From Cryptosporidium bovis (taxonomy: Eukaryota > Apicomplexa > Conoidasida > Eucoccidiorida > Cryptosporidiidae), in assembly GCA_009768925.2 (NCBI GenBank), contig VHIT02000034.1:496001-560000 (forward strand): a DNA stretch of 64,000 nt, in the 5' to 3' direction. The notes under the pieces are model-generated. The model made no database searches and was not told the origin of the DNA. It worked only from the letters and a program-made list of their open reading frames with translations. A program made the translations under genes and the position numbers. Below are positions 1,931-45,144 of the stretch, in pieces. Numbering within the stretch: position 1 is the stretch's first letter; each line of letters begins with the position of its first letter.

Positions 1931-3904
1931 CTAGGCAAAAACTAAATTGTTCAGTATATTTGGGAATTTCCACGAATTTGATATTTTACCATTCAACTTG
2001 GTCCAATACATTTCGGACTCATCATCATCAGGTGGGATAAAGTCAGCGTCTTTTTTAGATAAATTATCGTATATATATCTCCTAATATTTGGATCATGTT
2101 TAGCTTTTGCAATTCCAACAGAAGAACCTATATTTGGAATATTTTTTGCATATGTAGTAAAATAAAACCTCATAAATAGTGAGCCAAGTAAGTATGAGTG
2201 GCCGTATTCAAGAGGAACATCGATTGACATGAATCCAGGTTTGCATTTACCTTGTTCATTTGGTGTTAAATATAAATCTGGAGTAATAACAAGTTTGAAC
2301 CCGTCCCTAAAAGTGTATGTAATATTTGGAAAATGTTCAAAAACCGTTCTATCAACGCTACTTTTATCAAAATGTATTTGTGAACAATCACCAAAAGGTT
2401 TGTATTCATCCGTGAAATGTTTATATTCATAATATGGAAGAGTGTAAAAAGACGTACCTGAATCAAAAATAACATATCCAGGAGTTCTATTAACAGTGTC
2501 AATTCTTTTATTATATTTTTTATATATGTAAACATCCATAGGTACGTCTTCCATATTACCAAACTTATTTTTAAGATATTCAGCTTCTAAATCGTCCCAT
2601 TCATAAGCTAAAGATCCTTGATCACAGCAGTATTTCGTATCGCCTATAAATAAAGATTCAATTTCAACTTGCCAGTAATTTTCCCTCACAACTTGGAGCA
2701 TGTGTATTTCACCATCATAAAGATTTGGGTCAATACCACCCAATAAAAGAAGTGCAGATAGGGAATGTTTATTGGAAATTTTATTTTTCTCATTTCTATT
2801 AAAATTGAAAAAATCAAATAATATATTGTTAATATTGACATTCTTTAAATTAGGTTTAATTCTGTAATCATTGATATATATAGAGAATGTATTTTCATTA
2901 ATAAGGCCTTCATTCTTAAGTCTTTCAATAAGTGGTAATTGCAATTTACTGGAAGAAGAAAGCTGAGTAAAACCCAAGCCCAGCACACCTTCAAGCTCAA
3001 TGGCATCAAACACATCAATTTTGCTATTTTCTGTATTTTGAACTTCATCAATGAGACCAATAACATGTTCATTAAGTTGGAAATTATCAAATTTGAGGGT
3101 GTCAAAAATAAGTTTGCCAAATATTTTACCTGTACCAAATATAACTGATATATCTTCGTATTTTGGTATTCTTTTAAAAGATTTTGATAAATACTTTGAA
3201 TATCTTTTTACTTTTTGGCAACTTGGTTGATTACATTCACTGCTTATTACCCATAAATTACTGCTACCAGTATCTATAATTGGCCAAAATTCTTGTTCAG
3301 GCTCGCCTATCTTAATTCTACATAAAAAGAGTGAATTCTTAGCTTCGTATAACGGTATTGTTATATTGGTTAAGTATAAATTATATGGTATGTTTTTATC
3401 ATTGATATCTTTGATATATATAGTTTTGTGTAATCTTTTCACACTTCTATATATATTGTTTAAATTATCTTTAATTAAGGATGAAGATGGCATTTGCTTA
3501 TGAGTTTTGTTATGGTACTCAACACCAATATTTATTTTCGTTTCATTATAATTGCTGTCGTTATATTCGTCATAGTAATGATGGTGTTCATACTCTTTAT
3601 CATTGCCACCGTTGCTATCATAATCGTCATTACCATTATTTATGTTATTAAAAATCAAATTCTCTTTTACTGATGGTGACCATTTATAAATGTCAGTTTG
3701 CGATAGATTTCCTGCGATTTCAATAACACCATCACCGCTTTCATTTAAATTACCAATTAAGATGAAGCTGTTGTTAATATGGTATTCTTGATTACATCTG
3801 TAGTGATAATTGATTACTACCCTTTTATCAATTAATATGCCAAAAATAATGAATAGATAGATGTATAACATGGTACATGAATTATGAAACATGTTCGATA
3901 GCAT
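1931..3904 (-). CDS. Pepsin-like aspartyl protease (family A1)
   Basis: The 657-residue product has a hydrophobic N-terminal signal or signal anchor (about residues 12-28), then a long Asn/Asp/Tyr-rich prosegment of about 150 residues, then a bilobal pepsin domain. The two catalytic motifs are DTGSSNLW near residue 211 and FDSGTSFYTLP near residue 481. The flap reads IFGTGKIFGK, with Phe where most pepsins carry the flap Tyr. Several cysteines in the second lobe could pair. There is no C-terminal membrane helix or GPI signal. Known: apicomplexan A1 proteases mature secretory-organelle proteins or degrade host protein. Inference: the long prosegment and Phe flap fit the maturase group (plasmepsin IX/X, TgASP3 type) better than a digestive plasmepsin, but this cannot be settled by eye. 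It diverges from the SNF1-like kinase gene. Confidence 0.9.
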   Translation of the reverse strand: MLSNMFHNSCTMLYIYLFIIFGILIDKRVVINYHYRCNQEYHINNSFILIGNLNESGDGVIEIAGNLSQTDIYKWSPSVKENLIFNNINNGNDDYDSNGGNDKEYEHHHYYDEYNDSNYNETKINIGVEYHNKTHKQMPSSSLIKDNLNNIYRSVKRLHKTIYIKDINDKNIPYNLYLTNITIPLYEAKNSLFLCRIKIGEPEQEFWPIIDTGSSNLWVISSECNQPSCQKVKRYSKYLSKSFKRIPKYEDISVIFGTGKIFGKLIFDTLKFDNFQLNEHVIGLIDEVQNTENSKIDVFDAIELEGVLGLGFTQLSSSSKLQLPLIERLKNEGLINENTFSIYINDYRIKPNLKNVNINNILFDFFNFNRNEKNKISNKHSLSALLLLGGIDPNLYDGEIHMLQVVRENYWQVEIESLFIGDTKYCCDQGSLAYEWDDLEAEYLKNKFGNMEDVPMDVYIYKKYNKRIDTVNRTPGYVIFDSGTSFYTLPYYEYKHFTDEYKPFGDCSQIHFDKSSVDRTVFEHFPNITYTFRDGFKLVITPDLYLTPNEQGKCKPGFMSIDVPLEYGHSYLLGSLFMRFYFTTYAKNIPNIGSSVGIAKAKHDPNIRRYIYDNLSKKDADFIPPDDDESEMYWTKLNGKISNSWKFPNILNNLVFA

Positions 3905-28843: not shown

Positions 28844-31800
28844 CTAATTTTCTTTTGAAACGTCCTCCCTCATATATTTAAGCAATTCTCCCAGAGTTGA
28901 AATGTTTGATCCATCGTTCTGATTGTCGTTATTATTGCTACCATCATTACTGGTAATATGAAAGTTATTAATGTTGTTATACTCACTTTTTTTGTAATTG
29001 TTAATACCTTTATAACCACTACTACAATAGCTGCTATTAGTACTGCTATTGTTACTAAAGCCAGTACCAATATAATTACTATTGCTATTGTAATAATAGT
29101 TTGTGCCATTATAACCAGTGATATAACTATTACTGTCATTACTTGCACAATTGTAACTACTGCTGCTACTACTACCAATATAGGAATAATTGTCGTTATT
29201 GCCACTGCTGCTTAAAATGTAGGAATTTTCATTGTGACGTTTGTCGAAATTACTTTCATATGCAGCATAGGAAGAATCATGACGAATGTAACTTGGACTA
29301 TTTAAATTTATGTTTTTTGAGGCCAAATTTCCATTCAAGGAGAGTAAATTGGAGAGAAGAGTTCCGGCAGAGGAAAACATGTTTTGTGGATTTGAAATTA
29401 GAAACTCCATTTTAGAATTGGTTTTAATACATTGTTTATTGCAATATTCAGCAATATTGAAAATTTGACTTTCATTGGGCAAAAGAGTAGATAATATTGA
29501 GATATCACTTAATTCACTTTTTGTCTCGTCATCTGAACATATTGTAACAATCCCAAGTAAATAATACTTAGAAATTGGAAAATCAAAGTTACTCGGCACT
29601 TTACAATCATTTATACTGTTTTTTTTGTTTAAATTGCAGGGAAACAACCAAAGTTTAATTTCTTCTGAATTTAATAAATTAAATTCAAAGACTTCGTAGT
29701 TACGCATATTATATTGAAAATGGAATATTCTATTGAAAACTTCGTCCTCACAACTGTTGATATTTTGACTCCAATTAGAGGACAAAAGAACGCATAAAGA
29801 CTTGTTTAGATCCAATTTCAAGTCGTTAAACAAAAATAATCTTCCATTAAACTGAAAATTCAGGTTTTTTTCGAGTGAATTTAGAATATAATCACTTTTC
29901 TTGCCTATTTGGTTTCCTATTTGGTAAAATCCAACTTCCAAAATGTTCCCTGAGCTATTTTTATCTATTTCACTGCTTAAATTAAGCCAGCCTAGCCAAA
30001 TAAATTTAATGTCACTCAAATATCCAATGTGTCTCTTTAGTCTCTCCGACATATTTTTCTTGTTCGACCCAACTGGATCAAAATCTCCAGATTTTTGGTT
30101 CGATTGGCTTGCTTGATCTAAAACACTTGATTTATTATATTCAGAGTCACCACTTATCATCTCCCCCTCGCTTATCCTAATTTTCTTGCAACTCTCAATA
30201 TCATTACCCTTCTTAGAATTTTGATCATTCACCCCATAGATGCAAGCTTCTCTTTTCTTTTTTAACGCCATCACCTCATTCCTCTCATAAATATCAAGCT
30301 CGCTTGCTTTTTGTTTTGAAACTTTGGCTTTGATGTCAGTACTACTTTTACTATCGGTTATACCACTTGCTGCAGAATTTTTATCGATATTTGAGCTCTT
30401 CTTTCGATGCCTATCTCTAATTGACCCACTGTTGTTTAAAGACATGCTGCAACTGGAGGACGGCAATTTGTGGTGAGAGTGACTGGAATTACTGCTTTTG
30501 GAATTACCTTCTCTACTGGAACTGCTTAATTCAATCATTATTTTTGTATGAGTGCTTGTATATTCGCTATTAATGTGCCATTTATTTTTGAAGTACTTAA
30601 TATAGGACGAATAGTTTGATAAGTCGATAAGATACAATTCATCCTCGCTCACTCTGAAATTCATTGACTCGAAAATTAATGTAAATATATAATCAACGGT
30701 ATTTTTGAGATATTTATCAACAAGAGTGAACAAATTAATGCAATTAGATTCTTTCGTCTCTGTAAATCCATTGTTGTAAATAAAGTCATCTTTTTTTTTT
30801 ATAAAATCGTAATTACAGTCCTTAATATCGTAAAAATAGTTGAAAACAAACTCAAGTAATTGCTTTGCGTATTTTCTAATTAAAAACAAAAAAACATTGG
30901 GTTTTAGTGGTTGAGATAAAGGAAGTATCTGCCACTTGTATTTGACTCTATCTATACTTTTTTCCAGTAAAAATATATTACTTAATGGTCCAAAGTCTTC
31001 CTTATTGTCAAATTCAAAATACCTTACTTTGAAATTCTTTTTTCCAGAAAAGTGATATACCAACCTATTGTCTTTCCTGCGTAATATGGTCAAAGATCCT
31101 ATTTCTAATGCTTTTTTCATACATTTTTCGGAGTCTGTAGTTACAAAAGCATCTTTTTTAAATATAAATTCCTTCTCCAGAAAACACTTGTATTCAGTTA
31201 AATATTCCCCTATATCAACAAAACCTCCCATAAAGGAAGCTAACAACTCCGTTTCTGGAACCTCTAAATAAAAGAAACTAGTATAAAGTAAACTCCTACT
31301 CAAGTAAGTCCCTACTTTGCCATTGCCACAATTATTTATGCTGTAGTTCCCTGAATTACTACTGCTTTTATCATCGTTTATAATGCAATTAATATGGTCC
31401 TTTTTGTTAAATGATAAAGATTCAATAAGGTAGTTCGAGTATGACAAATAACATTCAAGTGCGACAAATTCACAGTATTTATTTATTCCTAGCGTGCTTC
31501 CGTTAACTGCAACATTATTCCAAACTAAGCACTCATAATGAAGATCTTTAATTACCTTATATCCCAAAATTGGAACAAATACTGCCTCTTTTTGCACTAG
31601 GTCATTTTCCTCATTATTATCGTCTAAAGATTTGACATTATTTATTTCTTTTTTTTCGCTTGGTGAAATACCCCAAAAGTACCTTGTTCCAAATACTAAG
31701 TAATATCTAGTTATCCCTTTAAAATACTCAATATATGCCAGGGAAAGCTTGTCTGTTATTATTTTTGCTCTTATTATTAGAATTCTAAGTTTAAGTATTT

Positions 31801-34800
31801 CTTCCAAAAAACCTATATTATACAATATCATTTTCATGATGTCACCATCTTTAAAAGTTGAAGTGTATTCTTTACGGTCAATATTGGTTATTTTATTTAA
31901 AATGGTATGAATATCATTATCTAAAATGTGTGATTCATCATAATAATTCATCAATAAATCATAGTTATTGTAAGGTTTAACTCCATAAGTTTTGTAAATA
32001 ATCTCGTAGTTAGGTATCAACTTTGATAATTCATAACAAGATGCTCTTCTAATATCATCACGGCTTACATTAGGTGGTATCAACATCTTTTCCATAAGTA
32101 CTTTTATATCAGTATCACCATATAAATTATATTTATCATCTCTCTTATTTGCTGTTACATCTTTTTTAATTATTTCTAATATAGTTTCTGCTTTTTTCTC
32201 TAATTCAAGTATTCTTTCTTTTCTATTCTTAACTAAAGACAAAAATTTACCTATTGAATCTCTATTATTGTGGTTAACTATGTAATTTATTACGCTCTCT
32301 GATTTATTTATCAAGTATTCAAATACATCCAAAAATGTCTTTTTTTCGCTTAGTGGAAAAATTTTATTTATGAAAAATATATCTACATCTTCTTTATTCT
32401 TAAAAGGAGTAAAAAAGTATGCGTTTGATATTGTCTTAAAACTGCTAAATTCCTCCATTAACATTAATTCTCTCTCATGTATATAGTGGCCAAACATAAG
32501 CGAAATACCTTGTCTTTCTGGTTTTAAATTGTCCAAACAATAAACCAATCTAATTATTTCTTTAATTAAGTAATAGAATTCTTTCAAAATAATAGTTTTA
32601 CCGTTTTTTACAAAACTTGTATTCTTCATAATCTCATTCATACTATAGTTCATAATTGCTATTTTTTTCGCTAAATCAAAATTGAAGCTGCCATATTTGT
32701 TATTTATTAGTCTTGATTTACTCATCAAATTTTTAATATATATCCTAAATAGTATTATATTCGTGGCAAAATCAATAGTATCGTGAATAAACACAAACCT
32801 TTTGTCATTGATACATTCCTTTATTGTTTTATTTTTTCCAGTATTTACTGTTCTCAAAATATTACTGCACTCCGGTCTACATTTCAGTTCTAATTTAGTT
32901 CCTTCACTATTATTATTAATATTGTTATCCAAATTTGTATCAAAGTTAAAAGATGCAAAAGAAAATGTATTGTAACACTCTTTATTTTCAAATTCATGAT
33001 TGTTAAATCCTCCCTCATTTGAAATCCGAAGTAAAAACATTTCACTGAAACTATTCAAATTATTGTTTAGTGAATGAATATCATACGGATTTTGGCCGGC
33101 ACCTTTATAATAGTAATAATAATGCTCGCCTATTCTGGAATAATCATAATATAAATCGTATAAACTCCTCATTCTCCTCAAGTAGATTGAATTTAAAACT
33201 TCGTTATTTAACTTTATTTCTCTAGATAAATCAAATAACAGTTTTATATCAGAGTAAAATATACCACTTTTTTGATTTATTGAATACTTTATTGCTAATA
33301 TTACATTTTTTTTAGAAAGATAGACTAGTGTTATATCCTTTATAAAAGACCATTTATTCTTTGCCTTCTTTATTCTATCTATGATGGAATTTACATCGTC
33401 CTCTCCACAACTTTTACTCCCAAACTTGCTACTGTATTCAAAGTTGTCGCATTCGTCCGCCAATTTATCCAACAATCGCAGCTTATTTTCCACCTCTAAT
33501 TGCAACTCACCCTTTTCATATTCGTCATTCGATCCGCTTTCTGAAGTCTCCATGTCATTATTGTATTTTGCATTGCTCACACAACCGATACTTACTGAAT
33601 TTATTGGTTTAATGCCTCTAATTTGTTCAATTAAATTTGTAGGAAAATAAAGTAAAAAATTACTTGGTAAATTGGAATTATACAAACCATTTGTTGTTAT
33701 GTCCCTAAATACACCGTTGATATAATCATTAAATAGTTCAAATGAAAAGAATTCAATTATTCGCAATTTTAAATACATATCTACTGTTCTTTTGTATTTG
33801 TACTCGAATTCTTTTTCATATTTGATTCCTTTGTGAAGTTTCTTATTATCACTATATTCACACTCACTCGAATCATCATACTTTTGATCAAATTCAAGGC
33901 AACTATCACACTCTACTTCAATTCTACTCTTTTCTACAGTATTGTTACAGTAACAATTCTCAACCAAATTGTTTTCACCATTGTAGTAAGGATTGTTCTT
34001 TGAAAAGTCATAAAGTAGTATTTTCATTATTTTACTTCTATTATATAGTAATAATACGTCATAGTACCTGTTTCCGTTCAATGCTTTGTCTTTATTTAAA
34101 AAATAATCTTCCAAATTATCAAATAATTTATTCCAATCACAAACAAATTTTGCATAGTGACTTGAAATTCTAAAAATTAGAGTATATATAGCAAAGCCGT
34201 CTTTTAATCTCATTGGATTGAATATATTAGATATTTCCAAAAGAGTGTAATATGATGATGAGGGAATCATTAAACTATAATTAAGCCAGTCGCACAACTT
34301 CATGTTTACCTGAAGTTTTTTAAGTGAAATTCTGTACAAATTAAACAAAAATAAAATCTCTATATTTGAATAATAGTTAACCACGTCATTTAAAAACTCT
34401 AATTTATTATTTAATTTTCTCCTTCTCTCCAATATTAATTCAGACAAAAATTTAATTATCCCCCTATAATTAAAACTAGTTTTATTACTTATATTATCCG
34501 ATTCATCGTCCACAAAAATGATTTCTTTTCTCAACTTTACAATCCTGTGAATACAATCTTTGTCCTTAATAAAAACAGTCTTAATATTACATAAACCGTT
34601 GCTTACTCTTAATTTTTTTGAATGGTTTAAGGAAAAAAGCATCAAGTTCCTTTCCTCTTCCATTAAACTTGTGTATAATCTGAATAGACCCTCAAAATTT
34701 GAATTTCCTATTTCGCACACTTTATTACAAAAATCATTATCATCAGACAAAACATCATTCAAGCTATTATTATTTAAATCAATATTTCCGGAACAACTAT

Positions 34801-37800
34801 TATCAGAATTCATATTCGCTTTCAAATAATTACTGTTGCCAGAACAAGTACCATTTTCTTTACTATCAGTTTCAACTATTTTCTTATTATTAAATAATTC
34901 GTCAAATATTACATATTCATTACTTAGTTTAGAGGTTGTTTTGTTTGAGTATATTTTTTCCGGAGAATACGAGTAATAAAAGTCATTATCAAAGTTAGTC
35001 TCAAAATCTTTATTCACATACTTTGACAAGATACCACTGCTATAACTAATTGGTTGATGAAAGCAATAACTGTCATTATTACAATCTTTGTAAGCATCAT
35101 TGTAATTATTGTTTGTAAACTTATTCAATATCCTGCCCTTCAGTTCAAAGTTTTTATTATTTATTAAGTAAATAATACTGTCTATTTGTTTATTTAAACT
35201 CTCAAATTCCTCATAATCAGAAACTAATTTAGATACATTAAGTTTCGCGTGAACTTTTTTGTAGTATATATACTTTAAATCAAAATAATAGTCATCCAAT
35301 GTTCCCATAATATTCCTTCCGGATAAAAGGGAATCATTCATGTATAATGCCAATCTCTCTGTCAAGTAATTCATCAAATAATTGTACCACTTGTCATTCA
35401 TACACTGATCGTATTTCTCACTATTCGATTTGTCTTCCAAATATTTTTTAAAATTGTCGCCTTTACACTTCAATGTATTAAAATACCCAACGCTTAAGTG
35501 AACCGTGTTGTAGTCAACAAGTCTTAATTTTCGCCATATTAATAGCAGTTCTTTGTTATCTAAACACGAAAGCTTTCTTGGAATGTACTCTAAAAGGTCA
35601 ATGTAGTTGATCATGTTTTCCGAACTTGTTTTATTTTTATCTAAATTAATGTCCAAATCTTTGTTCATTTTATTTACATTGTGCAATATGTAAATACACA
35701 AAAATCTCTGAAATAGTCTAACCTCCCAATTATATGGAATTCTATATGTGTTATTAGAACCAAAAGAGTCATCTGATTCATTAACTTTAATTAAAGATGG
35801 CTTAATACACACACCTAAGTTGGTATTCACGACAATATTTAGTAAATAATCATAGTATTCACTTATAGTCCCATAGTCTTTAATTACGAACTGATTTGTG
35901 CATCTCTTATCGTTAGCAATACTATTGTTAAAATCATCTATAATAAATAAACAAATACCATCGTAGACTGTTTCTATTTTATCATTGTTACCTATTATAT
36001 AGTTCATTATTTTTAATAATCTTTGCTTATAATCCAATTTCAATATTAATGAGTCATCATCTGCTTTCATGTTTTCAATAATTAAGTAGAAACTTAAAAT
36101 ATTGTTGTAGTGATATACAAAAGTATCCAATAACATTTTCATTTTATCATTAGCATCTTTAACTAGTTTATTTAAATAGTTATTATTATCAAAACCGTTT
36201 AAATAAATTGTATTAGCAGCAATGACACTGTTTTTTGTTATTGTTTTATCGTTGTAGTTACCGTCAACAAATCCCATTTTATTCACAACCCTTTTGTCGG
36301 CAACACTTTCTACCGATAAACCATCATTGCAACTGTTTTTGTAGCTATCTTCTCTCTCTTTGTCATTAACCATTTTCCTCTTAGCTTTACTGTCCTTGTC
36401 CTTATCACTGTCAAAATCTCGATTATCAGCATCCAAGTAAAGTCTTAGGAGGTAAATTGTCTCAACTCTTAGTTTAGATGTCTTTTTTATATTGTTTTCA
36501 AAATAGTCAATTAAGGCAAAGTATATTTTTATCTTCTCTAGTAATGCAGAAATGCTGGATTTTTCAGGCAACAATCTAAATATTCCCCGTATAACGCCGT
36601 CAATGAAAAATAGCATTAACGAGAAAGTTAAGTTTGAGGAATTAATCTTATTCGCAAATTCTTCTAAATTTTCATATTCAATTCTAAGCCTTAAATATTT
36701 ATCTGCCGACCTTAATTTTGATAATATAACCTTGTTTCTTGCAAAATTTATGTTAATTGTTCTCATCTTACTAAAATATTTTTCTCTCTTATTATTCTCA
36801 ATATCAGTGAAATAACTACAAAATAATAAATACTTGTCCCTTATTCCCATATTATCACAAACCTGTTTGCTTATACTTCTATTGTTGTTGATACACTCCA
36901 AATAATTTGCACATAATTCGTTAATATCCCATATCCACGCCTCAACTTTTCTTATATTGCTCAACATTAATCTAATTTTTAAAGATAAAAGCTTTCTAGG
37001 AAAGTGATTACAGTAAATGTATCTATTTTTCATATTATCAGAATATACAGTAGATCCCTTCTTTATTTTGCCAGAGTTATGATTGAAACGAGACTTTTTT
37101 GGTAACAATATTGAATAATCAGATTGGATCTCTTTGTATTTCACTTTATTTGTGTCATTTATTGTATCACTTGAATTGCTATCCAACTTTAATTCATTAA
37201 CATATTCTACAAATTTTTCCAAGGATATAATCTCGTCGATAATATTTATGTTATTTTCAAGACTAAACAATTGATTAGAGTAAATACTAAAAGAATTACT
37301 ATCGAAATTATTGTTAATAACCATATAATCACTCCAATTTTTGTTTACATCAAAAAACATAGCAAGCTCCTTCCCAACTCTATTTTCAACTAATACAGAG
37401 TAATTTAGTATCTTTTTGCATCTATTCCTAGATAATACAGAATTTTTAGGCAACTCTCTGTCTACCTTATTCATCAAATATCTGAGCTTATCTGTGTCAA
37501 TTACTTTGTTATTCACCAATTTGTCAAGTTCACTGTTAAATCTGACCACTTTTCTGTTTATCCTAGTCAAAAAACTAAAAAGTTTTGAATTCACAAGTGG
37601 TCCTCCAATGCTTTCCATATCGGTTTTGTTTCCACTTCCTCCACTGCTCCCATCATTGTTGCTCCTTTTACTATTATTATTAGTGTTGTCACTGCAGTTA
37701 TTGTTGTAGATATCATTGTTACTACTAACATCGCTAATATTACTACAATTATTACGATAACAATCAGGAAACTCCCTTAATACTCTCGAAACGGTGTTCA

Positions 37801-39451
37801 TGTCTACTTCAGATATCCTCTTATTTTCCAGCAAATGTTTGTTTTTTTCTTCCCAATACATTATCCTACCCTTCTCTAAGAGCTCCTGAATTTCATCAAA
37901 ACAATAAAACGCATCGTTATCTATATGTTTCTTTAAATTGCAAAAACCTATATTACTTATTTTTAATTCTTTCACCTTATTACTTAAGCTAGAACAGAAT
38001 TTGGTTAACATATTCCTAAACTTAGCATTTACTGGAATATATTTAGACAGTTCAATCCATTTATTCATGCTCTTTAGAGAAGATATCCTATTATATTTTA
38101 ACCTCCTACTTATTAGAGACAAAAAACCAGATGATCTTAATGTCCAAATATCAGAGGTTACAAGTAGTGACAATAATGTTAAATTGCCAAGTGGTTTATT
38201 GTACAAATACTCTGGAACAAAAAAATAGTCTTTACTAATATATTCAAAGACATTACCTATGTAAACATCCAAGTTTCTCCCCTTTCCATATAGCTTCACT
38301 TCATTCCTAAATTCCGTTATCATTAACTCCCTAAATCAACATAATTGAGTTAATTTAAATCTCAAATGAACTCAAGACAAAAGAAAATAATAATAATATA
38401 TTCAAATAGTTAATATATGCAGTGTTGGACAGCCGACTGGTTGTGTAATTATAATCAAACTAAACAACTAATGAACTGTCCTGTATTGTTTATTATTCCA
38501 ACGGAACATTCGCACTACAACACTATTTTGTCATAGTGCAGCATTATTAAACATTAATTCCATTGGATTTTATTATAAATGAAATGAGAAAGCTTTTTTT
38601 AAATGGCAGTACAAAAGGTAGTTACTATTTCATTTTAGAATATTATCATTCTAATATCCTAGTGATACAATTACTACTGTTTGTAATTGCCAATGTTATT
38701 AATGCTATCATCACTAACAGTATCGCCATTATTATCACTATTTTACTAATATTATTATTTCATTTATCTTTATAGTTAAAGAAACTTACGTTAGTTTTGA
38801 ATCATAAACAGAAACCAAATTTATGTTGTAATGTTCATGACAATATGCCTCTATTGTCATATCACTCTTAATTCTAACATTTTTTCTACGATAATATTTA
38901 CTTTGCATTAAGCAATGTATATGAAAAGTTTTATTACAATCCCCGTGACTGCATACATGCATTACTCCAATATATACTTTACAGTAATAACAAGAATAAG
39001 GGTTTTTATAAGGTATTGTAGACACTACTTCAATACATGATAAATCTCTCCAGTTATTTATTGAGACATATTTAGATGAATATATAGCACAATCAATGTG
39101 AATCCAAATTGAATTATGACTCGAATGTTTGTAGTATTCCCTATATTCTTGTATACCTTGCTTCATTGGTAATAAAACTCTCTTTAGTACACCACCATTG
39201 AAGCAAACAATGCACCTGTAGTAATCATTAGACCTCTTACAATTCAACGAATATGCTCCCTTTAGCTTTGCCTCAAATTGGCATGGATCACAAACTATCA
39301 CCATACAGTCATCATCCTCTCCAAGACTCGAAACACCGTAACATATTCTATGAAAATAGCTTTCACAGCACTTGCATCTTACAAACTTTAATTCTTTATA
39401 CTTATGAAATTCAATTTCTCTACAAATCACACAATTGCTTTCATCTAACAT
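28844..39451 (-). CDS. Giant chromatin-type protein: PHD-zinc knuckle-PHD (PZP) at N terminus, SPOC-like domain at C terminus
   Basis: I join two open frames: exon 1 39451-38790 and exon 2 38330-28844, in frame, about 3,382 residues. The exon 1 frame starts at ATG 39451; a GTG 15 bases upstream is not a start. Seen: PHD finger at about 7-58 (CVIC...CKCC...HRIC...CDPC); C2HC knuckle at about 80-125 (CIVC...HIDC); second PHD at about 150-205 (CYYC...CSHGDC...HIHC...CHEH). The ~2,750-residue middle is helical, with Asn/Ser/Lys inserts and no domain I recognise. At about 2,995-3,150 FIWLGWLNL, NGRLFLFNDL, NYEVFEF, IKLWLFPCN and PISKYYLLGIV fit a SPOC fold. The tail is Asn/Tyr/Ser repeats. Known: PZP modules read histone H3; SPOC domains bind phosphorylated RNA polymerase II tails or RNA-processing partners. 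Inference: a scaffold linking chromatin and transcription. Confidence 0.72.
28870..29215 (-). repeat. Asn/Tyr/Ser/Gly low-complexity coding repeat
   Basis: The C-terminal ~115 residues of the giant protein are almost only Asn, Tyr, Ser, Gly and Thr, encoded by AAT/AAC/AGT-type repeats. Probably disordered and length-variable between strains. Confidence 0.8.
38331..38789 (-). other. Intron joining the PZP exon to the giant SPOC exon
   Basis: 459 bases. Donor CTAAC/GTAAGT, acceptor GATTTAG/GGAGTTAATG. Phase 2 on both sides (AC + G). The donor includes an in-frame TAA. The acceptor lies seven bases before an in-frame ATG, so both halves mimic complete genes. An apparent hydrophobic plus-strand frame inside (about 38584-38775) is low-complexity and starts only at TTG. 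Confidence 0.72.
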
Positions 39452-43764: not shown

Positions 43765-45144
43765 CTATGATGCCTGCTTAGTCTCCTCACCGTCCTCAAA
43801 TTCACATTCTATTCCCAAACTAGAGAGTTTTTTTAGTACATTACCGTAATAGAATGGATCTGGGAACCCCTGTAGGGCAGGTCCACCACATGTGGATATT
43901 TTGTGTGGGATTATATTCCATTGAGTAATGTCCATGTTTATTCCTGTAGTAGAGTTAGTTAAGCTTGAGACCTTAAATGTATGACCCAATTTAAATGCCT
44001 TAGATAAACCCTTAAGTAATATTTTACCCTGTTCATCATAAGGTAGATAGGCTATTTTATATGTACCTATATACGGTTTGTTTGGATTTGGATGTCTATT
44101 ATTTTGTATACCATTTGGAATAAAATACTCTATTTCTATTACATTTATATTTGGATAGCTTTCTATCTCAATATTACCTGATTTGTACACAATGTACCTC
44201 ATTATTCCTGGTGGTGAAGACCCTTTCCCAAAACATTGTACTGTCATACAAAGCGGACAAAAAAGAGAGTTTTTACCCTTCAAATGTCCTATCATCTCAC
44301 TCAAACATTCATTATGATAAACATGTGAACATTTATTTAACCTTATCAAATTATCTTCTAATCTATGTAAACATAAGCAACAATCATCGTCTATTTTTTC
44401 ATTTATCAACTCAGTTTTAACTTTATTTATCTCATCTTCTGTAAAAACCTTTTGATGGCCTTCGCAAACATATTCTCCGGTTTCTATTATCAATGACAAT
44501 GCATCATCAAATTGAGCTATGCTTGTGTCCGTAAATTCCCATTCTAATTTAAAATCCATTCTCTCTTTTTCTACCCCATATTGAATTTCATCATAATTTG
44601 AATTGTCTAATAAATCAACCCTCTTTAAATATCTTCTGTATATTTTTCTTTCTTTTCCAGTTATTCTATTTACTTGCTTACACTCTATTGGATATATATC
44701 ATATTGGTTCCAAACTACATACCTTCCCGTTTTTGGTTTTGCCACTTGTTTTTTTAAGATAGAAACTGTTTTAAAATCATTGTTGTTGCTTTCCGTATTC
44801 TCTTTATTATCATTACTCACTTCGCTAATCACTTCTTTGTGTAAATCCCACTGCATATGCAAGTAAAATCTTTCTATTTGAGCTGATATATTTGGTTGAT
44901 ACAAATTAAGTTGACCATTATTGTCCGTCCAAAACCATACTGCTGATGATATATCTCTGCTTATTCTTCTATGGCGTTGCGTTATGAAATTAAACTGATA
45001 AAAGTGACGCAAATTCAACAAAAATGGTATACCTCCGACATTTACTATTATATTCACTTCCTTGCTTCTCCAAGACTTTTCTATTATTGCTGAGTTCTCT
45101 AACGAATAATATACCCATCCTTCATCTGACCACCAACGCCACAT
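43765..45144 (-). CDS. Deltex-type E3 ubiquitin ligase: WWE, WWE-like, RING, DTC
   Basis: 459 residues. The N terminus has a WWE domain (MWRWWSDEGWVYYS...IEKSW...NFITQRHRRISRD) and a second WWE-like unit split by an Asn-rich insert (VWFWTDNNGQ...YDIYPIECKQVNRITGKERKIYRRY). A C3HC4/H2-type RING lies at about 256-300 (CCLCLHRLEDN...CSHVYHNECL...CPLC). The C-terminal ~150 residues match the Deltex C-terminal domain: NRHPNPNKPYIGTYKIAYLP, LLKGLSKAF, TTGINMDITQWNIIPHKIS and GFPDPFYYGNVLKKL. Known: the DTC domain binds ADP-ribose, and RING-DTC units can attach ubiquitin to ADP-ribose; WWE domains also bind ADP-ribose forms. Inference: an ADP-ribose-responsive ligase. The His of the PHKIS segment corresponds to the conserved DTC pocket His. 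Confidence 0.88.
   Translation of the reverse strand: MWRWWSDEGWVYYSLENSAIIEKSWRSKEVNIIVNVGGIPFLLNLRHFYQFNFITQRHRRISRDISSAVWFWTDNNGQLNLYQPNISAQIERFYLHMQWDLHKEVISEVSNDNKENTESNNNDFKTVSILKKQVAKPKTGRYVVWNQYDIYPIECKQVNRITGKERKIYRRYLKRVDLLDNSNYDEIQYGVEKERMDFKLEWEFTDTSIAQFDDALSLIIETGEYVCEGHQKVFTEDEINKVKTELINEKIDDDCCLCLHRLEDNLIRLNKCSHVYHNECLSEMIGHLKGKNSLFCPLCMTVQCFGKGSSPPGIMRYIVYKSGNIEIESYPNINVIEIEYFIPNGIQNNRHPNPNKPYIGTYKIAYLPYDEQGKILLKGLSKAFKLGHTFKVSSLTNSTTGINMDITQWNIIPHKISTCGGPALQGFPDPFYYGNVLKKLSSLGIECEFEDGEETKQAS

Follow-up and report, generated by a model that had tools for sequence, protein, structure and literature searches.

A spliced giant gene of Cryptosporidium bovis encoding a PZP module, a probable SPOC domain and an intronic H/ACA snoRNA candidate

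We analysed a minus-strand locus of Cryptosporidium bovis, located in a stretch of 64,000 nucleotides (assembly GCA_009768925.2, contig VHIT02000034.1, positions 496,001 to 560,000) which we call the window and to which all coordinates refer. By comparison with related species, two neighbouring reading frames of this locus are one spliced protein, in which two exons of 662 and 9,487 bases, separated by a phase-2 intron of 459 bases, yield a single product of 3,382 residues. It carries a PZP module (PHD, zinc knuckle and extended PHD, in this order) at the N-terminus and a probable SPOC domain at the C-terminus, while the intron very likely harbours an H/ACA small nucleolar RNA (snoRNA). The features are as follows.

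38790..39451, minus strand: exon 1, 662 bases; 220 complete codons (MLDESN...SKL) followed by AC, the first two bases of a Thr codon; carries the PZP module
39281..39433, minus strand: first PHD finger, C4HC3; C7, C10, C26, C29, H34, C37, C54, C57; 8 of 8 invariant in seven rows
39089..39214, minus strand: zinc knuckle, C2HC; C80, C83, H118, C121; invariant in seven rows
38831..38992, minus strand: extended PHD; C154, C157, C167, C172, H177, H179, C180, C204, H207; all nine invariant in seven rows; covered by PF13771
38331..38789, minus strand: intron, phase 2, 459 bases, GTAAGT...ATTTAG, 25.7% GC
38420..38567, minus strand: H/ACA snoRNA candidate in the intron, from grammar scans, folds and a sub-threshold Rfam match to SNORA19
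28844..38330, minus strand: exon 2, 9,487 bases; completes the Thr codon with its first base, continues with Glu-Leu-Met... and runs to the stop
30113..38326, minus strand: middle region, about 2,740 residues in which N, L, K, S and I abound; can be aligned across seven species
29513..30028, minus strand: SPOC-like domain by profile comparison, joined residues about 2989-3160
29333..29425, minus strand: short motif on the C-terminal side of the SPOC-like domain, reading KTNSKMEFLISNPQNMFSSAGTLLSNLLSLN in the window; largely invariant, with a run of invariant alignment columns
38604..38692, minus strand: second strongly folded element of the intron, forming an imperfect hairpin of 89 bases; the stretch 38590-38725 folds at -36.2 kcal/mol, z -5.65

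A preliminary description of this DNA had joined the two frames by an intron, and we could confirm donor and acceptor (CTAAC/GTAAGT and GATTTAG/G), phase 2 on both sides and the coding sum of 10,149 bases, which is divisible by three and contains a single, terminal stop. The first frame was found where it had been placed, but its length is 221 residues plus stop instead of 222 residues. Its TAA is indeed supplied by the donor, yet the intron is not hidden in a stop codon in any special sense: with a phase-2 GTAAG donor the G completes the codon and TAA comes next, and such a stop arises wherever a phase-2 intron starts with GTAA, so that it is ordinary. In-frame joining is not rare by itself either, with 10 of the 28 combinations of GT and AG near both ends (4 donors x 7 acceptors) joining without a stop, and it speaks weakly for the fusion, for which comparison provides the strong evidence. 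Through the junction the C. ryanae protein reads ...NSELTESTITEYTREM..., aligning ungapped and with the same residue count to ...DSKLTELMITEFRNEV... of the window. Among the ten open joins, only 38789/38330, which uses the consensus GTAAGT donor, reproduces this count; the same donor combined with the acceptor at 38306 is also open, but leaves the product 8 residues short of C. ryanae.

Five other Cryptosporidium species have a single annotated protein with an extended PHD, of 3,360 residues in C. ryanae (FG386_000137), 2,814 in C. ubiquitum (cubi_02641), 2,807 in chipmunk genotype I (named 'protein with two PHD Zn fingers'), 2,758 in C. canis and 2,753 in C. felis. All five, which are predicted models themselves, can be aligned with the spliced product over its whole length, although conservation of the middle is weak in the four species that are more distant. 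The protein is thus already annotated whole in congeners and the fusion itself is known. The congener protein names and the precomputed Pfam lists examined contain no SPOC domain, and literature titles and abstracts on Cryptosporidium PHD/SPOC, apicomplexan SPOC and snoRNA topics describe, among the matches listed, neither the protein as PZP-SPOC nor the intronic RNA. Both halves of the gene are 91–92% identical to proteins of C. xiaoi, for which the deposited annotation has two genes (RS030_162550 and RS030_162549) divided at this junction. The 220-residue frame of a further relative (P0004) stops at the same alignment column as the short frame of C. xiaoi, and from these two end points we infer that the intron is present in congeners as well. 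The C. xiaoi annotation probably divides one gene into two.

The PZP end of the protein is firm as judged from its sequence. The extended PHD exceeds the Pfam cut-off with 47.1 versus 29.1 bits (PF13771 2.8e-12, PF13832 9.1e-11), and the closest PDB sequences are chains of Jade-1 (E 4e-07) and Jade-3. Within exon 1, 21 Cys/His positions are invariant in 7 of 7 aligned rows, including all 20 ligands expected for PHD, knuckle and extended PHD; these were assigned by pattern in all three parts, and eight of the nine invariant Cys/His of the extended PHD would be ligands. The profile hidden Markov model (HMM) match and the complete, invariant zinc-ligand pattern bear out the proposal of an N-terminal module of histone-reader type. 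In JADE, BRPF and AF10 the PZP module docks on the histone H3 tail and the nucleosome; order and zinc-ligand pattern are the same here as in JADE1/JADE3, BRPF and AF10, and by analogy with this family the module would be expected to bind histones. In contrast to these proteins, the remainder here is a huge stretch without any other Pfam match. Four other large open frames of 1,753–2,216 residues with extended-PHD matches were found on contigs C8, C13, C18 and C23 (loci L002–L006), one of them carrying two such matches, so that the genome holds a small set of giant extended-PHD proteins.

For the middle region, neither Pfam (above cut-off) nor the PDB gave a match, in agreement with the roughly 2,750 residues of unknown sequence that the preliminary description placed between the two ends, and the Pfam search of exon 2 as a whole gave nothing beyond a sub-threshold domain of unknown function (DUF).

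Over residues 3001–3200, the C-terminal region is 37–43% identical to its counterparts in the four more distant species. Its assignment to SPOC, a seven-strand barrel fold, is moderately supported by the order of its elements together with one kind of profile comparison and is probable, though not proven. In a scripted semi-global profile comparison with SHARP/RBM15 at gap costs of 6–10, the Z score comes close to the value for a known SPOC pair. None of 171 decoys reaches a Z score of 3.5 at one gap setting, and the SHARP/RBM15 comparison lies above all of them. The alignment is colinear from the opening W.G strand over the FPC strand to the closing hydrophobic strand, with FPCNL opposite FPPCEF. 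It is nevertheless conceivable, although we consider it doubtful, that the fusion is real and its C-terminal domain represents a different beta-barrel or a Cryptosporidium domain not yet on record. Several results weigh in this direction and against SPOC: at cut-off PF07744 has no match in the domain, a PDB sequence search with it returned nothing, and hhalign gave no support. In the same direction, the Z score is weak for local alignment and at a gap cost of 11/1, single sequences behave unevenly, and the comparison with the PHF3 profile is not specific. The column of the phosphoserine-anchoring Arg, whose alignment position is uncertain, also varies, with Arg in the window, C. xiaoi and C. 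ryanae and Ile, Ile, Val and Met in the other four species. This residue (R1248 in PHF3, R3552 in SHARP) is not present in all SPOC domains, being missing from SPOCD1 (PMC9834408). A whole-genome search with PF07744 was without match as well, but controls were likewise silent in that search. What speaks for SPOC, in turn, are the ordered SHARP/RBM15 elements and the semi-global Z score, which at one gap setting no decoy attains. The SPOC assignment of the preliminary description is moderately supported by these two lines, while the HMM and PDB sequence searches do not back it.

PHF3, DIDO and Bye1, which combine a PHD with a SPOC domain, share the arrangement in which a PHD-type reader and a SPOC-like domain occupy opposite ends. 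The protein described here differs from them in having a PZP module in place of a single PHD and a C-terminal domain that is by profile closer to SHARP/RBM15 than to PHF3; their TFIIS-like central domain has no Pfam match in exon 2 and none in P0006–P0008. The best profile agreement is found with the Spen family of SPOC proteins (SHARP/MINT, RBM15, FPA). These carry N-terminal RRMs where the PZP module is located here, and Pfam gave no RRM match in this protein or in P0006–P0008. Directly after the SPOC-like domain, the motif SKMEFLI.N..MF.SAGTLLS.L.S.N (29333–29425) fits no known family, and neither does a short conserved C-terminal end of the protein.

With 459 bases, the intron is more than four times as long as the mean C. 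parvum intron of 99 bases (PMC4637869). It folds at -118.2 kcal/mol compared to -79.5 kcal/mol in 100 shuffles (z -7.1), and a genome search for a second copy returned its own copy only. The candidate RNA consists of a 5' hairpin of 71 bases (38567–38497), a hinge holding the H box (AUAAUA at 38496 or AAACAA at 38491), a 3' hairpin of 55 bases (38481–38427) and, after one base, the ACA box (38425–38423), ending with the three-base tail CUG to 38420, a 3' end assumed from the ACA box. This hairpin-hinge-hairpin-ACA layout was read by eye, and both hairpins are present in folds of the whole intron and of 38424–38575. A scan required both hairpins to reach -14 kcal/mol or lower, an H box in the hinge and ACA within two bases of the helix. 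None of 200 dinucleotide shuffles of the intron complied, and in the 64-kb window, scanned on both strands in overlapping pieces with two outer pairs as an extra rule, this candidate was the only one. Furthermore, the arms of the 3' pocket (GUUCAUUAG and CCAGUC) stay close to the SNORA19 consensus in the Rfam alignment. We conclude that the intronic element is very likely an H/ACA snoRNA; the candidate is new here, was missed by the earlier reading of this DNA and may account for the length of the intron.

Alternatively, the intron could merely be long and structured, with an H/ACA-like layout that is accidental or a decayed relic. In favour of this stands the Rfam match to SNORA19, which with 27.3 bits (E 0.027 for 651 bases) remains below the gathering score of 80, at which a search of the whole window gave 0 matches. 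The 3' pocket is moreover partly closed in the predicted fold, and the scan rules were written after the candidate had been seen, so that the scan shows rarity and not independent discovery. We nevertheless judge this alternative unlikely, given the outcome of the shuffles and of the two-strand scan, the co-occurrence in one place of both hairpins with an H box and, one base past the helix, an ACA box, and the agreement of the 3' pocket with SNORA19. As regards possible targets of the guide, two conserved ribosomal RNA strings were absent from the genome searched. A comparable arrangement is described for snR191, an H/ACA snoRNA in the intron of yeast NOG2, and for intron-poor fungi, which keep snoRNA-bearing introns (PMC8476143). 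There, too, the H/ACA layout resides in a coding-gene intron of an intron-poor genome, but the host here is a chromatin-type gene instead of a ribosome-biogenesis gene, and the snoRNA is a prediction. The 89-base hairpin at 38604–38692 matches no accepted family and may be another small RNA.

The genome of 9.06 Mb is assembled in 43 contigs, and the GC content of the window amounts to 24–35% per 2 kb. Four H/ACA snoRNAs of C. parvum, cgd5_1585, cgd7_2033, cgd7_3425 and cgd7_5104, are listed in a review under gene numbers that point to chromosomes 5 and 7, with no confirmed targets (PMC12246861). The gene neighbouring the giant in the window encodes a PIG-V mannosyltransferase, whose C. parvum gene is cgd6_5100 (PMC9713705). 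Assuming conserved gene order, the candidate would therefore be located on chromosome 6 and would not be among these four. Further along the window, a minus-strand gene at 43765–45144 encodes a Deltex-type ubiquitin ligase, with a WWE domain, a Deltex C-terminal domain and a RING match of borderline strength.

We propose, and consider somewhat favoured as a whole explanation, a model in which one gene gives rise to two kinds of product, the PZP-SPOC giant and the intronic H/ACA snoRNA. In this model, a single splicing event early in the coding region of the pre-mRNA would lead to the 3,382-residue protein, which is presumably nuclear. Its PZP module would dock on the histone H3 tail and the nucleosome, as in JADE, BRPF and AF10, and its SPOC-like domain would take hold of a peptide from a partner in the machinery of transcription or RNA processing, with the long middle predicted to act as a scaffold keeping both ends apart. 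The excised 459-base intron would be trimmed to an H/ACA snoRNA guiding pseudouridylation, its processing and target being conjectural.

In an extended version of this model, which appears improbable, the gene would be dual and coupled by splicing: spliced RNA would yield snoRNA and giant, while unspliced RNA would run into the TAA of the donor and yield a free 221-residue PZP reader. The end column of the short frame, common to C. xiaoi and P0004, may be noted beside it. If true, the relative amounts of full-length scaffold, short competing reader and snoRNA would all depend on one event. Two separate genes, one for a free PZP protein of 221 residues and one for a free protein of 3,159 residues, as in the C. 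xiaoi deposit and as the own ATG of the second frame and the own stop of each would allow, can practically be dismissed in view of the five congener models (predictions as they are) that hold both parts in one protein, the ungapped alignment of the junction-flanking residues to C. ryanae and the perfect GTAAGT donor.

Gene control in Cryptosporidium is incompletely understood (PMC12246861). Being common to at least seven species and combining a histone-reader module with a likely SPOC domain, the giant would be a candidate for linking chromatin to transcription or RNA processing. The intronic candidate would, provided that gene order is kept, be an addition to the known H/ACA snoRNAs of C. parvum, and it could explain why an intron of more than fourfold mean length is found in an intron-poor genome.
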